A DNA stretch of 64,000 nucleotides. It comes from Eggerthella sinensis (GTDB lineage: Bacteria; Actinomycetota; Coriobacteriia; Coriobacteriales; Eggerthellaceae). Positions within the stretch are counted from its first letter, which is position 1; each line of letters begins with the position of its first letter. Of this stretch, positions 54,580 to 61,977 are shown one piece after another. The stretch lies in contig NZ_PPTT01000004.1 of assembly GCF_003339815.1 (NCBI RefSeq), forward strand, positions 62,001-126,000, read 5' to 3'. The notes below the pieces were generated by a model. The model worked only from the letters and a program-made list of their open reading frames with translations, was not told the origin of the DNA and did not search any database. Made by a program: the position numbers and the translations under genes.

Positions 54580-56382
54580 TTAATTCTGAGCGGGATCGTC
54601 GGCCTTGTTCATGTCGCTGCGGGTTCTCTTGACGAGGGCCGAGAGGTCGTCGTAGGAGTGCAGGTCCATCTTCGCGTAGATGTTCGTGGTGTGGGAATGC
54701 ACCGTCGCCGACGAGATGAACAGCCGCTCTTCCATCTCCTTGGGGCGGTACCCGCGCGCCATCAAGCCGAACACCTCCGATTCGCGCGCGGTCAAGCCGT
54801 GGGCGCGCGCGAGGTGGGCGATGGTGGCGTCGAGCGCGCGCTTGCGGGAGTCGTCGGGGCCGGGCTCCTGCGCCTCGGGATTCTCGTTCTCGGGCGGCAG
54901 GTCGAACCGTTCGAGCATCTCCTGCTTGCTGTGGATGCCCAGCTTCTTGTAGATGCTCTGCACGTGGGACTTCACGGTGTTGTCGGAGATGTTGAAGCTT
55001 CCGGCGATGGACACGGTGCTGCGCCCGCGCAGCAGCTCGTCGAGGATGTCCTGCTCGCGCTCCGTGAGCTTCGCCTGCTTCACCAGGGCGTCGTGCAGCT
55101 TGCGCCGCCGCGTTTCGAGGCTGTTCTGCACCTCGGTTTGCAGCCGGCGGCCCGACGCCACGCCCGTGTCCGGATCGAGGTAGCGCTGTCCCTCGGAAAT
55201 GGCCGCCAGCAGTCCGAAGACGAGCACGTAGCCCACCGCCGTCATGAGGATGGCGTACTGCGCGAGGTCGAGATGGAAGAGGTCGACGAGCACGCCCACG
55301 AGCAGCCCGGCGTCGATGATGCCCGTCATGAAGATCATGCCGAAGCACACCGATTCGAGCGGGTAGGTGTGCCGCGCGTACGATATCTCGCAGAACACGC
55401 TCAGCTCGAAGATGGCCACGAGGGCGAAGCACGCCATGTTGACGTAGTTGCTGTAGTACGGCGGGATGCCCAGGGCGCCCAGAAACGGCATCATGGCGAA
55501 CGCGAACGACATGAGCAGCGTGCCCACCCAGAAGAAGCGCTTGTACGACACGTTGAAAACGCCGATGGCCACGAAGCACGTGCAGGCGCCGATGGCGCGG
55601 GCCACGTGATAGGGGTAGTTGAAGTCCATGCCCGACGTCGATGCGATCTGCTCGTAGGCGAAGTGGTAGTTCATGAAGTTGAACGCGATCTCGCCGATGG
55701 TCAATCCCAGAAGCAGCAGCACGCTGATGCCGAAGAACTCCCGCTTCAGCACGTTGCTCGTCCGCGCGCGCCCGCGCCGGGTCGAGCGCGTGCGCGAGAA
55801 CACCTCGCCGTCCACGCGATCGCGCGCCGCATAGACGTACATCAGGATGGAGAGCAGGGGGAACGTGGAGATGGCGACGGCCGCGGCCAGCGGCTTCATG
55901 GCGAACAGCACGATGCCGTCGAACACGATGCCGATGGTGATGGCGAGCGAGGCGTTGACGGTTGCCGACTGCGCGCCGCGCTCCGTCCACACCGTGCCCC
56001 ACAGGGCCATGACGAGGGCGAGCACCGCCCCGTTCACGGCGCTCGAAGCGAGGGCGAGCGGCAGCATGCTCCAGGACGCGGCGGCGATGGAGAGCAGCGA
56101 CGAGGCGATGCCCGCGATGCCCACCCCGATGAGGCGCCCCGTTCCGCCGTAGAGCTTCGCGCTGACGGCGGGCGCGAAGCGGGCGAGCAAGAACAGCGTC
56201 ACGCCGCTCGCGGCCATGCCGACGGCGAGCGACGGCACCGTGAACGCCTGCGCGCTCTGGTTCCAGTTGAAGAAGATGCCCGAGTAGAAGGCGAGATCCC
56301 ACCACGCCCACATGAGGGCCGACCCGGCGATGGAGCTTGCCGACGTCGCCCCGTAAAACAGATTGCCCCGCTCTTTCATCAT
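54580..56382 (-). CDS. Membrane regulator with two LuxR-type HTH domains
   Basis: A 600-residue protein: about twelve hydrophobic helices (about 10-410), then two LuxR/GerE-type DNA-binding domains in tandem. The first covers about 439-493 (LTEREQDILDELLRG, ISDNTVKSHVQSIYKKL) and the second about 530-586 (LTARESEVFGLMARG, ISSATVHSHTTNIYAKM), separated by a 36-residue Glu/Pro/Asp-rich linker. Single-HTH relatives are common in Eggerthellaceae (for example at 11643); the doubled form is unusual. It may control the flavin/molybdenum operon at 57379 or the dpp operon. ATG 56380-56382 has AGGAA upstream. Confidence 0.85.
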   Translation of the reverse strand: MMKERGNLFYGATSASSIAGSALMWAWWDLAFYSGIFFNWNQSAQAFTVPSLAVGMAASGVTLFLLARFAPAVSAKLYGGTGRLIGVGIAGIASSLLSIAAASWSMLPLALASSAVNGAVLALVMALWGTVWTERGAQSATVNASLAITIGIVFDGIVLFAMKPLAAAVAISTFPLLSILMYVYAARDRVDGEVFSRTRSTRRGRARTSNVLKREFFGISVLLLLGLTIGEIAFNFMNYHFAYEQIASTSGMDFNYPYHVARAIGACTCFVAIGVFNVSYKRFFWVGTLLMSFAFAMMPFLGALGIPPYYSNYVNMACFALVAIFELSVFCEISYARHTYPLESVCFGMIFMTGIIDAGLLVGVLVDLFHLDLAQYAILMTAVGYVLVFGLLAAISEGQRYLDPDTGVASGRRLQTEVQNSLETRRRKLHDALVKQAKLTEREQDILDELLRGRSTVSIAGSFNISDNTVKSHVQSIYKKLGIHSKQEMLERFDLPPENENPEAQEPGPDDSRKRALDATIAHLARAHGLTARESEVFGLMARGYRPKEMEERLFISSATVHSHTTNIYAKMDLHSYDDLSALVKRTRSDMNKADDPAQN

Positions 56383-57378: not shown

Positions 57379-58977
57379 ATGCAAGCTGAGGAGACGGTCG
57401 AGAAGCGCCGTTCATCGAAGAAGAAGCCGATCGCCGCGCTGTGCATCGCGATGATGCTCGCGGCCGCGCTGAGCGCGCTGGGATGCGCGCCGCAGCAGCA
57501 GGCTTCGCGGGAGCCGGACGCCTCCGGCGCCGCCACCGAGCAGGAGGCTGCGGGAGCGGCCGTCCTGGAAGGCACGAACATGAAGGCGAACGACTTCCAG
57601 CAGCGCGATGCGGGTGCGCTGCCCGACGACTACAACATTTCGGCGAAGGTGAATGCGGGGAGCCGCGGTTGCGACGCCTGCCACGAAGACCTCCAGGCAA
57701 CCATCAAGGACATCGCCCCCACGGTGCACATCATGACCACGGGAGCCATCTTCGGCAAGACGGTTGACTGGAACGATTGCGAGTCGTGCCACTCGATGCA
57801 CGATACCCGCGGCGGCGTGTACCTGGGCGACTACATGCACGCGACGCACTTCAGCAGCCCCACGTTCACGGATGCCGACAACGGCAATTGCTGGAGCTGC
57901 CACGCCACCAAGAAGAACGGCGAGATCGTCATGTGGGACGAGTACTGCTACGAAGAGCAGCTGAGCGGCTACACGGCGAACACGCCGGCCTCGGAGGCCT
58001 TCTTCCACATGCGCGGCTACGATGCCGACACCTCCATCGGCATCTCGACGCTGGCGTCCGACGAGGTGGATCTCAAGGTCGATCTCGACCAGGAGATGAC
58101 CGACGAGTCGCAGCGCTACGAAGCGGTGAACTTCAACATCCCCGCATGGACGGACGCGGAACTCGCCGCATGGAGCATCGAGATCAAGGGCGTGAAGAAC
58201 CCCGCCACGCTCACGCTCGCCGACCTCGAGCAGCATTTCGAGAAGCAGACCCAGCAGGTTACGCAGGAGTGCCTCGTCAACGGCGTGAACTCGTCGCTCG
58301 AGGACAGCTTCGAGGCTTCGGGCTACCTGCTGAGCGACATCATCGAGTACTGCGGCGGCGTCGACGAAGGGGCCGTGACCGTGAACGGCATCGCCGATGC
58401 CGACGAGGGGTGGAACTTCTGCGTCGAGCTCGACGACGCGTTGAAGAACGGCGCGTTCGTGGCCACCGAGTACTACGGCCACGAGCTGACCGCCATGATG
58501 GGCGCCCCCGCGGTGCTCGTGCAGCCCGGCTTCCCCGGCGGCACGTGGGTCAAGTACCTCAAGACCATCGAGTTCGGCACCGAGCCCGTCACCGCCCCGG
58601 TCAGGGTCATCGCCGGCGACGACTTCTACGACGGCGCCGAGGACCCGCACCTGTACGGGTGCAACTCGGCATGGTTCAACCCGGCAACCGACGGCCAGGT
58701 GTTCAAGGTGGGCGAAGCCATCGACCTCGAAGGGTTCGCCTGGGTGTGGAACGTGGACGGCCATAGCACCAAGCAGGTGCAGTTCAGCTGGGACTACGGC
58801 AAAACCTGGTTCAACGCCGACGTCGCCCCCGACGCCGATCCCAACAACTGGCAGCGCTTCCATGCAACGTGGACGCCCACCCAGCCCGGCACGTACTGCC
58901 TCAAGGTGCAGGCCGTCGACGGCAAAGACTGGCATCAGAAGAAGCCCGCGAGCGTGTTCGTCACGGTGGAAGGGTAA
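57379..58977 (+). CDS. Triheme cytochrome fused to a sulfite-oxidase-like molybdopterin domain
   Basis: A 532-residue exported lipoprotein (lipobox ALGC, C36). Three CxxCH haem sites follow: C98-H102, C134-H138 and C171-H175. The C-terminal two thirds matches the sulfite oxidase fold: QECLVNGVNS with candidate metal ligand C298, then GAPAVLVQPGFPGGTWVKYLK, and an Ig-like dimerisation domain (HSTKQVQFSWDYGKTW onward). This would put haem and a molybdopterin site on one chain outside the membrane. It may pass electrons to the flavoprotein encoded at 60178. Substrate unknown. ATG 57379 has GGAGAGG upstream. It opens a four-gene operon. Confidence 0.83.
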   Translation: MQAEETVEKRRSSKKKPIAALCIAMMLAAALSALGCAPQQQASREPDASGAATEQEAAGAAVLEGTNMKANDFQQRDAGALPDDYNISAKVNAGSRGCDACHEDLQATIKDIAPTVHIMTTGAIFGKTVDWNDCESCHSMHDTRGGVYLGDYMHATHFSSPTFTDADNGNCWSCHATKKNGEIVMWDEYCYEEQLSGYTANTPASEAFFHMRGYDADTSIGISTLASDEVDLKVDLDQEMTDESQRYEAVNFNIPAWTDAELAAWSIEIKGVKNPATLTLADLEQHFEKQTQQVTQECLVNGVNSSLEDSFEASGYLLSDIIEYCGGVDEGAVTVNGIADADEGWNFCVELDDALKNGAFVATEYYGHELTAMMGAPAVLVQPGFPGGTWVKYLKTIEFGTEPVTAPVRVIAGDDFYDGAEDPHLYGCNSAWFNPATDGQVFKVGEAIDLEGFAWVWNVDGHSTKQVQFSWDYGKTWFNADVAPDADPNNWQRFHATWTPTQPGTYCLKVQAVDGKDWHQKKPASVFVTVEG

Positions 58978-58991
58978 CGAGGTGATCATCT

Positions 58992-59492
58992 ATGAATGAA
59001 ACGACTACGAAGGTTGCCGGAGCGCTCGCGTCCCTGACGCTTCTGGCGGGTGCCGGTGCGGCCGTTGCCGTGCCGGCGGTGCAGGGCGGCGCGGACGCGG
59101 CCGTGCGCGCGGATATCGCGACGGGCGACGATGCCGCGAAAGGATCGCTTCTGACGACCGTCGCGCAGGTGGAGGGCGCGTTCTCCTTCGACCAGGGCGC
59201 GCTTTCGTCGAACGGCTCGATAGCCGACGTGTTCTGCAAGGCCGCCGCTTCGCTGTGCGCGTCGTTGCCGGACTACGGCGTCGAGCGCGCTCAGCCGTCC
59301 ATCGACGTGTCGGGCGACGGGGGCACGGCGTTTTCCGCAACCGTGGACGAGATGAAGGATCGGAAGGGCGCGGCCTCCCACGTCATGGCGTGCGCGTGCG
59401 CGTCGAACGGGGCGGGCGGCGGCGCCATCGCCAACGCCGAGGTCGAGGGCGTGTCGCTTCAGTCCATCGCCGAGATGGCCGAAGCAAGGTAG
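58992..59492 (+). CDS. N-terminal half of a split sulfite-oxidase-like protein (exported)
   Basis: A 166-residue protein with a signal peptide (about 1-28, LASLTLLAGAGAAVAVPAV). Its C-terminal part SHVMACACASNGAGGG...NAEVEGVSLQSIAEMAEAR aligns in order with the cysteine-containing strand and following helix of the sulfite-oxidase-like domain in the upstream gene (QECLVNGVNS...EASGYLLSDIIEY). C134 or C136 would be the metal ligand. It ends at TAG 59490-59492, and the next gene continues the fold in the same frame. RBS GAGG lies upstream of ATG 58992. Alone it cannot form the full domain. Confidence 0.65.
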   Translation: MNETTTKVAGALASLTLLAGAGAAVAVPAVQGGADAAVRADIATGDDAAKGSLLTTVAQVEGAFSFDQGALSSNGSIADVFCKAAASLCASLPDYGVERAQPSIDVSGDGGTAFSATVDEMKDRKGAASHVMACACASNGAGGGAIANAEVEGVSLQSIAEMAEAR

Positions 59493-59500
59493 CGAGCAAC

Positions 59501-59531
59501 GCCGGCGCCCTGCGTTGCGCGGGGCGCCGGC
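59501..59531 (+). other. Hairpin between the two halves of the split protein gene
   Basis: GCCGGCGCCC (59501-59510) and GGGCGCCGGC (59522-59531) form a perfect 10-base stem with an 11-base loop, directly after TAG 59490-59492. No U-run follows, so it is more likely a ribosome or RNase barrier than a terminator. Confidence 0.75.
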
Positions 59532-59555
59532 TTCGACGGAGGAGGCGAGGGGAAC

Positions 59556-60119
59556 ATGGAATGCAATACGGTCACGTTCACGGCGGCGGACGGCAGGGAG
59601 CTGGCGCTTCCGCTGGACGCGCTCGTGGAGCGCGGCGCCATCGTGGCCTCGAAGGTGAACGGCGACGACGTCCTGTCGGTGATGGGGGCCGTCAACCAGC
59701 TTTGGGTTCCCCGGCTTCCGGCGAAGTACTACGTCCGCGACATCGTGGGCATCCGGTTCACGCGGGAGGAGGACCCTCCAACCTTCGACCCGTTCGCCTG
59801 CGACGGCCACGATTTCACGAACCGCCCCAACGTGTCGGTGAAAGCGCCGTACGTCGGCCGGACGGGCGAGCCGCTCGTCTTCGAGGGCTACGCGTCCGAT
59901 TTCGATCGCCGTATCACGGCCATCCAGCTCTCGCTCGACCAGGGGGAGCATTGGACGACGTATCCCGTGGAGCACGCCGATGCCGACCGGTGGGTGTACT
60001 GGCATTTCGCGTACACCCCGCGCGAGGCGGGCGCCTACCGGCTCAAGGTGCGCGCGGTGAACGACGAGGGGGCGTGCTCGCCGTCGCCGGCGGTGCACGC
60101 CTTCGAGGTGCTCGACTGA
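59556..60119 (+). CDS. C-terminal half of a split sulfite-oxidase-like protein
   Basis: A 187-residue protein without signal peptide. It begins in the middle of the sulfite-oxidase fold (VTFTAADGRELALPLDAL, then VMGAVNQLWVPRLPAKYYVRDIVGIRF, in part). It continues into the Ig-like dimerisation domain (ITAIQLSLDQGEHWTTYPV, WHFAYTPREAGAYRLKVRAV). It matches the second half of the upstream 57379 protein and lacks the metal-ligand cysteine. RBS GGAGG precedes ATG 59556. It is in the same frame as 58992-59492, with one TAG and 21 codons between them. Either two chains assemble, or the TAG disrupts one gene. Export without its own signal would need piggy-back transport. Confidence 0.72.
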   Translation: MECNTVTFTAADGRELALPLDALVERGAIVASKVNGDDVLSVMGAVNQLWVPRLPAKYYVRDIVGIRFTREEDPPTFDPFACDGHDFTNRPNVSVKAPYVGRTGEPLVFEGYASDFDRRITAIQLSLDQGEHWTTYPVEHADADRWVYWHFAYTPREAGAYRLKVRAVNDEGACSPSPAVHAFEVLD

Positions 60120-60177: not shown

Positions 60178-61977
60178 ATGAAGAACATCGATCGAAGGGG
60201 GTTTCTGACCGGGGCCATGGCAACGGGAGCGTTGGCGGCCGCGGGCGCGCTGTTCGGGTGCGCCCCGTCCGACGGGGAAGGGAAGGCCGCCGCCGACGCG
60301 TCGCCCGCTCCGGAGCGGGCGGGTTCCGCATCGGCGACATGGGATGCCCGCCCGGCATCCGTCGCCTCCGATGCCAGCGCGGGGAAGGACTACGACATCG
60401 TCATCGTGGGCGCCGGGAACTCGGGCATGATCGCCGCGTTGCGCGCCGCCGAGCTGGGCGGCAAGGTTGCCGTGCTCGAGCAGTCGGGCGCGCCCACGTC
60501 GTGGGCCGGCGACATCGACGCGTGCGGGAGCGCCCTCATGGAAGAGGCGGGGATCGAGGTCGACAAGGAGTTCGTCATCCACGACCTCGTGCGCTACGCG
60601 TCCGGAAAGTGCGACGAGAACCTCATCCGCCTCTGGGCCTACAACTCGGGCGCGTTCGTCGACTGGTACCAGGAGACGCTGCAGAAGAAGGGCGCGGACG
60701 TGATGCTCGACGTGGTGAAGAAGAAGTTCTATCCCGACGACTTCTACTTCACGAACGTGTACCACACGGCCTATCAGCCGCCGCTTCAGGAAACCGCCAA
60801 CCCCATGGGGTCCGAGGTGGCCATGCCCATCCTCGTCGAGCTGTTCGAGGCGGCCGGCGGCGAGCTTCTGTTCGACACCAAGGTCGTCGAGCTTATGCAG
60901 GACGGCGAAGGCGGCCGCGTCACCGGCGTCATCGCGGAGACGGACGGCGGGTACGTCGCCTACGGCGCGTCGAAGGGCGTCATGCTGTGCTGCGGCGGCT
61001 TTCTGGGCAACAAGGACATGATGGACGAATGGGGCGTCGTCTCCCACAAGTACTGCTCGAACCACATCGGCGGCGACGGCAGGAACGGCGACGGCATCAA
61101 GCTGGCCACCTGGGCCGGCGCGGCGCGCGACGCCTCGTCCACCGGATCGATGCTCATCTTCGATCGCGGGTGCATCACGACGGCGGACGACGACGGCGGC
61201 CTCGGCGCGCAGGGAGGCACCTCGCCCAACTTCTGGTGGCCCGGCTCGCAGCCCTTCCTGCGGGTGAACGCGCTCGGACAGCGCTTCTGCAACGAGGACA
61301 ACACGTACGACTTCGCCTTCAACCTTGCCGTCCAGCAGCCGGGCCACTACTGGTGGCAGGTGTTCGACGCAAGCTGCTGGGAGGACATCGTCAGCTTCGG
61401 AACCACCATCTGCTCGCGGCTCGTGGCCGAGGAGGGCGCGAAGAACTGCCTGCTGCTCGGCCAGTTCTACCCGTGCCGCAGCGCCGAGGAGTACGAGGAG
61501 GTGTACCTGGGCCCCAACGTGGAGAACGGCAACGTGATCAAATGCGACTCCCTCGACGAGCTGGCCGACGCGATGGGGCTCGACGCCGATGCGAAGAAGA
61601 ACTTCCTGGCTTCGGTGGCGCGCTACAACGAGGTGGCGGCGTCGGGGACCGATACGGATTACCACAAGGCGCCGTGGCGGCTTTCCGCCGTCGACGAGGC
61701 CCCGTACTACGCGGTGAAGCTTGCCGGTTGGGCCCTGGCCACGCTCTCGGGCGTGCACGTGAACGACAAGATGCAGGCGGTCACGCCCGCGGGCAAGCCC
61801 ATCGAGGGCCTGTACGTGGGCGGGTTGGACGTGGGCGGGTTCTTCAACGGGAACTACCCGCAGCTCTACGGCGGCCTGTGCATGGGCCGCTGCGTGACGC
61901 TGTCGTGGCTCGCCGCGCACGCCATGATGGGGAAGGAGTATCCGACCCCGGTCGAAAGCGCGCAGTTGGCGTTTTGA
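60178..61977 (+). CDS. Tat-exported FAD-dependent reductase (fumarate-reductase-like flavoprotein)
   Basis: A 599-residue flavoprotein. Tat motif DRRGFLTG and lipobox LFGC (C28) give an exported lipoprotein. The FAD-binding GAGNSGMIAALRAAELGG (dinucleotide loop) starts near residue 81, and VNALGQRFCNEDNTYD matches the conserved active-site region of the fumarate/urocanate reductase family. There is no covalent FMN domain, so electrons must come from a partner such as the triheme cytochrome at 57379. Flavoproteins of this type in Eggerthella reduce varied unsaturated compounds, including the Cgr2 digoxin reductase; the substrate here is unknown. RBS AAGGAGG precedes ATG 60178. Confidence 0.87.
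   Translation: MKNIDRRGFLTGAMATGALAAAGALFGCAPSDGEGKAAADASPAPERAGSASATWDARPASVASDASAGKDYDIVIVGAGNSGMIAALRAAELGGKVAVLEQSGAPTSWAGDIDACGSALMEEAGIEVDKEFVIHDLVRYASGKCDENLIRLWAYNSGAFVDWYQETLQKKGADVMLDVVKKKFYPDDFYFTNVYHTAYQPPLQETANPMGSEVAMPILVELFEAAGGELLFDTKVVELMQDGEGGRVTGVIAETDGGYVAYGASKGVMLCCGGFLGNKDMMDEWGVVSHKYCSNHIGGDGRNGDGIKLATWAGAARDASSTGSMLIFDRGCITTADDDGGLGAQGGTSPNFWWPGSQPFLRVNALGQRFCNEDNTYDFAFNLAVQQPGHYWWQVFDASCWEDIVSFGTTICSRLVAEEGAKNCLLLGQFYPCRSAEEYEEVYLGPNVENGNVIKCDSLDELADAMGLDADAKKNFLASVARYNEVAASGTDTDYHKAPWRLSAVDEAPYYAVKLAGWALATLSGVHVNDKMQAVTPAGKPIEGLYVGGLDVGGFFNGNYPQLYGGLCMGRCVTLSWLAAHAMMGKEYPTPVESAQLAF

Follow-up and report, generated by a model that had tools for sequence, protein, structure and literature searches.

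At one locus of Eggerthella sinensis, a sulfite oxidase-like (SuOx-like) domain is spread over two consecutive reading frames that share a phase and are separated by a TAG codon. This arrangement raises the question of whether the products are the two chains of a natural molybdopterin protein, whether the stop is read through in a regulated manner, or whether the locus is an early pseudogene, three options that were put forward in a preliminary description of the sequence. The window is the whole 64,000-nucleotide stretch that was analysed (contig NZ_PPTT01000004.1, positions 62,001 to 126,000), and the coordinates of the following features refer to it.

54580..56382, minus strand: membrane LuxR-type regulator, transcribed divergently next to the module and also present at the syntenic position in genome G023
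57379..58977, plus strand: gene A, 532 aa, with a lipoprotein-like N-terminus, three CXXCH heme motifs, an intact SuOx-like domain (PF00174, E 2.8e-21) and a dimerisation domain
58992..59492, plus strand: N-half gene, with an export-signal-like N-terminus, the first SuOx-like half and invariant Cys89, Cys134 and Cys136 (PF00174 positions 13-84; 27-row alignment)
59493..59555, plus strand: spacer, 63 nt, with a hairpin at 59501-59531 and the Shine-Dalgarno sequence GGAGGAGG at about 59538-59545; unique in the genome
59556..60119, plus strand: C-half gene, with the second SuOx-like half (PF00174 positions 92-166) and an Ig-like Mo-co dimerisation domain (PF03404); without signal peptide
60178..61977, plus strand: Tat-signal FAD_binding_2 flavoprotein, downstream of the C-half; missing from the syntenic G023 locus

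Complementary halves and a single old break

The N-half encodes 166 aa and ends with TAG at 59490-59492; the C-half encodes 187 aa and begins 63 nt (21 codons) further on in the same frame. In a Pfam search, the two proteins match consecutive portions of PF00174 (Oxidored_molyb), with the conserved Cys aligned in the first, and the 187-aa protein also matches the dimerisation domain. With the TAG read through, the region reaches 37.7 bits against a gathering cut-off of 24; taken singly, the halves score 17.3 and 14.9 bits, and the threshold is passed solely when they are combined. Judged from these matches, the two genes are complementary halves of one SuOx-like protein. The earlier account of a domain divided between a cysteine-bearing first gene and a second gene with the remainder, next to an intact copy of the fold at 57379, is thus borne out, and the shared frame, TAG, 21 codons, 10-pair stem-loop and good ribosome site that it described are all present in the sequence. 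As single halves fall below the Pfam cut-offs, such genes are liable to be missed in annotation or called pseudogenes. No description of them was found in the literature on Eggerthella sulfite oxidase, respiration or multiheme cytochromes.

The same split, which the preliminary description had proposed to seek in related genomes, is found in a paralogue within the same genome (L013/L133) and in congeners (L010 and L011). In these pairs, the N-half ends in ...A(Q/E)AR and the C-half restarts with M(R/E)CNTVTF. The locus syntenic to the window in G023 is likewise split. Counted from the listed matches in 138 genomes of the family, 15 genomes carry a stand-alone C-half and 18 a stand-alone N-half, across about ten genera; the carriers of a C-half include Adlercreutzia, Gordonibacter, Slackia, Enterorhabdus and other Eggerthellaceae. 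A contig scan with the four closest C-halves as query gave no matches, and a broader C-half alignment, used after that, did find C-halves. In a search of the wider order (395 genomes), all stand-alone C-halves are confined to Eggerthellaceae. Both halves are present in 15 of the 138 genomes, the N-half only in 3, the C-half only in none and neither in 120 (Fisher 2e-17, kinship ignored); among the 38 genomes with any relative, the association is also seen (Fisher 5e-8, kinship again ignored). The C-half depends on the N-half, never occurring without it.

An intact protein of the same family, B (about 360 aa), aligns end to end with the joined N+C sequence, and the break falls in a loop between "EMA" and "NTVT". 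One such intact gene lies elsewhere in the same genome (L133 12672-13754). In trees of the halves rooted on A proteins, a single clade holds the 22 C-half rows (SH-aLRT 98); the 34 N-halves cluster too, one other row being left unresolved, and intact B falls outside both half clades. Both halves are under purifying selection, as dN/dS is 0.23 for N and 0.13 for C when the window is compared with the syntenic locus of G023; for G001 against G003 it is 0.26 and 0.18, respectively. With complementary halves, a single origin and an intact outgroup, one old gene fission is the simplest reading. Bacterial fission has a precedent in the truncated pilin pair GSU1496/GSU1497 of Geobacter, where a single ancestral protein is now encoded as N- and C-terminal parts by adjacent genes and one fission partner stabilises the other part (PMC5174107). 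In contrast to that pair, whose fold is unrelated, an export-like signal is found here on the N part alone, and the C part is not always linked and can be shared. It is unusual for a compact domain of catalytic type to be cut through its centre, for the cut to be kept family-deep and for the halves then to become unlinked.

Predicted fold, cofactor pocket and gene A

Modelled alone, the N-half has a pLDDT of 60 and a pTM of 0.37, and its model has no structural match in the PDB; on both counts, it is rejected as a self-sufficient fold. The joined chain reaches a pTM of 0.55, and its model matches sulfite oxidases across both halves (Z 15-18, e.g., Z 17.7 over 265 residues). Because the alignment used for this model consisted of intact B sequences, which favours one fold by construction, the model supports but does not prove assembly of N with C.

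The joined chain resembles the sulfite dehydrogenase/oxidase family (SorA, SorT, SoxC and vertebrate sulfite oxidase; PF00174 plus PF03404) in fold, domain order, position of the Mo-ligand Cys and possession of the dimerisation domain. In contrast to these proteins, it consists of two chains, lacks a Tat signal and differs from SorA at the other cofactor positions. When all intact B and N+C rows are compared with those of SorA and SorT, the Mo-ligand Cys is kept throughout (as CxC, aligned with SorA Cys104), whereas SorA Arg55 and His57 are lost, the PLR Arg is replaced by Gln and the Lys by Arg in every row. Scores against the NCBIfam SorA/SorT equivalogs are 35 bits for a cut-off of 600 (SorA) and 20 bits for a cut-off of 570. 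Conservation of the replacement residues points to an altered pocket rather than decay. As the Arg, His and Lys contacts of SorA and SorT are replaced, identity as a molybdopterin protein is doubtful. Of the earlier proposal of a natural two-chain molybdopterin protein, the two-chain part therefore stands, since the split is conserved and goes back to one origin and the halves are selected for and translated independently, and the cofactor part does not stand as firmly. The N-termini of N and B are Sec-like, mostly without a twin Arg, and such N-termini are ill-suited to Tat export of a folded Moco enzyme. Across the 27 aligned N-halves, Cys89, Cys134 and Cys136 are invariant as a single Cys plus CxC and may form a redox or metal site in addition to the Mo-ligand position. 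Several examined A proteins are also without the SorA-type Arg/His contacts.

A divergent pocket in an export-type SuOx fold is also known from periplasmic PruR, which binds free pterin without Mo, has Trp in place of the Cys, is a single-chain, single-domain protein and passes a signal to a c-di-GMP enzyme (PMC13259868). The joined model aligns with PruR at 2.4 Å over 124 residues. Identity with PruR is rejected since the Mo-ligand Cys that PruR has lost is invariant here; the dimerisation domain is a further difference. The split genes raise the question of whether the respiration of gut Eggerthellaceae involves SuOx folds that lack the classical Moco contacts.

An A gene lies directly upstream of 33 of the 34 N-half genes, at a distance of −5 to 39 nt, which makes N a partner of A. 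The sole case in which the N-half gene precedes A is L125 6628-8943. Intact B genes hold the same place after A at L131, L132 and L133, and N plus C thus stands where B stands. The flavoprotein gene is not an obligate part, given its absence from the syntenic place in G023, and the LuxR-type gene is a possible regulator of the module. Cytochrome-SuOx modules are greatly expanded in the 4-Mb genome of the window (G000), which has 21 PF00174 domains.

The favoured reading, which we hold to be probable, is an old, maintained fission whose products assemble into one SuOx-like body partnering A. On this reading, a single cut through the loop that links the cysteine-bearing half to the rest of the domain divided the SuOx-like partner B into separate N and C genes, both of which have a stop, a ribosome site and a start of their own. 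N is translated directly after A, a multiheme cytochrome with a SuOx-like domain of its own. The two chains may then join non-covalently, and the resulting body would partner A in a redox complex that is exported and probably has no classical Mo cofactor.

Export and a possible role of the C-half in trans

All 27 aligned N-halves have a hydrophobic N-terminus (15-aa hydropathy maximum 1.59-2.26). In contrast, no signal peptide is found in any of 15 C-halves, where the highest 15-aa hydropathy is 0.55-1.46. The halves may thus occupy different compartments, and the sequences imply that C is either exported without a signal or acts inside the cell; the split raises the question of how the half-domains meet across the export step. 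Gene positions vary as well. C lies near but outside the A-N operon in G008, G011 and G009, on the opposite strand in G008 and G011, and elsewhere in the genome in G004, G133, G134 and G043. In G133 (Eggerthellaceae bacterium B82_7), ten A+N modules (L105, L119-L126) are accompanied by a single unlinked C-half (L104 8943-9518), and G008 has five N-halves and one C-half. Three genomes have N without detectable C, namely G012 (L110; genome 99% complete), G078 (L111) and G010 (L130), and there too N is beside A.

The signal-less C-halves, the three N-only genomes and the ten-to-one ratio in G133 count against a single fold. Together with the five-to-one ratio in G008, they keep alive the alternative that N is now an exported accessory subunit of A and C a helper in the cytoplasm, such as a chaperone shielding the half-domain N before export or an assembly factor shared by many A-N modules. 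That C never occurs without N, and that N adjoins A even where C is absent, would also fit a helper. Nevertheless, N and C genes are directly adjacent in ten loci, and C retains the dimerisation domain together with the pocket-lining Gln and Arg that are conserved in intact B. Both observations are better explained by a shared structural role, and we regard the helper as rather unlikely. A further proposal, held to be rather less likely than not, is that of a one-to-many split protein, in which one C-half, itself lacking a signal, would act in trans for many exported N-halves that are each paired with a separate surface cytochrome (ten in one genome). The shared C-half would be either a structural half exported without its own signal or a chaperone that completes N-halves in the cytoplasm before their export.

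Stop codon, spacer and a second fission

Unlike assembly from two independently translated chains, regulated read-through of the TAG, whether by suppression, by pyrrolysine or driven by the stem-loop, would yield a fused 375-aa protein. The window, G042 and G108 contig 159 agree with it in that the two halves share a frame and just one stop separates them, and a hairpin lies 3' of the stop. However, these are the only 3 of 10 adjacent N-C pairs that are in phase, as chance predicts, so that the shared frame reported earlier is real in the window but a one-in-three coincidence. The identity of the stop is not conserved in relatives either, since TAG, TAA and TGA all serve as stops of N-halves, and genes in these genomes generally use TAG more often than any other stop. 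A strong Shine-Dalgarno sequence precedes the C start, the C-half is unlinked in several genomes, and in G108 contigs 112 and 132 the ATG of C lies 2 nt past the stop of N with no hairpin. Taken together, the different frames, mixed stops, unlinked or opposite-strand C-halves and selection rule out read-through, pyrrolysine included, as well as an early pseudogene, and the chance we leave to either is minimal. In the pseudogene case, a once-intact gene would have been broken by the TAG and a small insertion, as the intact family member in the same genome might suggest, but the break is identical in about ten genera and forms one clade, the syntenic G023 locus is split rather than intact, the Shine-Dalgarno sequence and start of C are conserved, and dN/dS (0.13-0.26) is far below 1 in both halves.

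Within the spacer, positions 59501-59531 form a 14-pair stem (−35.8 kcal/mol, z −2.9 versus shuffles) with a base of 10 G+C-rich pairs (GCCGGCGCCC/GGGCGCCGGC), and GGAGGAGG is 10 nt upstream of the C-half ATG. The stem-loop noted earlier is therefore present and strong, but it is not exceptional, as stems of at least 8 pairs are found in 17 of 33 same-strand gaps of like size in these genomes. All 8 N-C spacers of at least 60 nt are more strongly folded than the average of their shuffles (p 0.003-0.12, combined 2e-7), with sequences that are unrelated except between the window and G023; in G108 contig 159, the spacer hairpin is followed by a T-run and resembles a terminator. A mobile or repeated element is rejected because the spacer sequence occurs once in the genome, and a special signal because half of comparable gaps have such stems and two G108 pairs have no spacer. 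For these last two reasons only a modest role is proposed: most likely, the hairpin would tune the ratio of N and C products as a partial terminator or 3' stabiliser. The 261-nt spacer of G042 (L113 4296-4556) contains a long inverted repeat that is nearly perfect (about 27 pairs, z −5.5) and is perhaps a small inserted palindromic element.

Finally, sister genes are cut at a different place, into a catalytic-type SuOx-like domain of about 270 aa followed by a dimerisation domain alone of 78-99 aa (e.g., 270 + 92 aa). In these pairs (L138 7178-8267; L134 7650-8570; L003 2321-3423; L005; L001), the second piece has no signal, all three relative frames occur, and the gaps range from −4 to 209 nt. 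Several pairs of this type are found in the same genome as the window.
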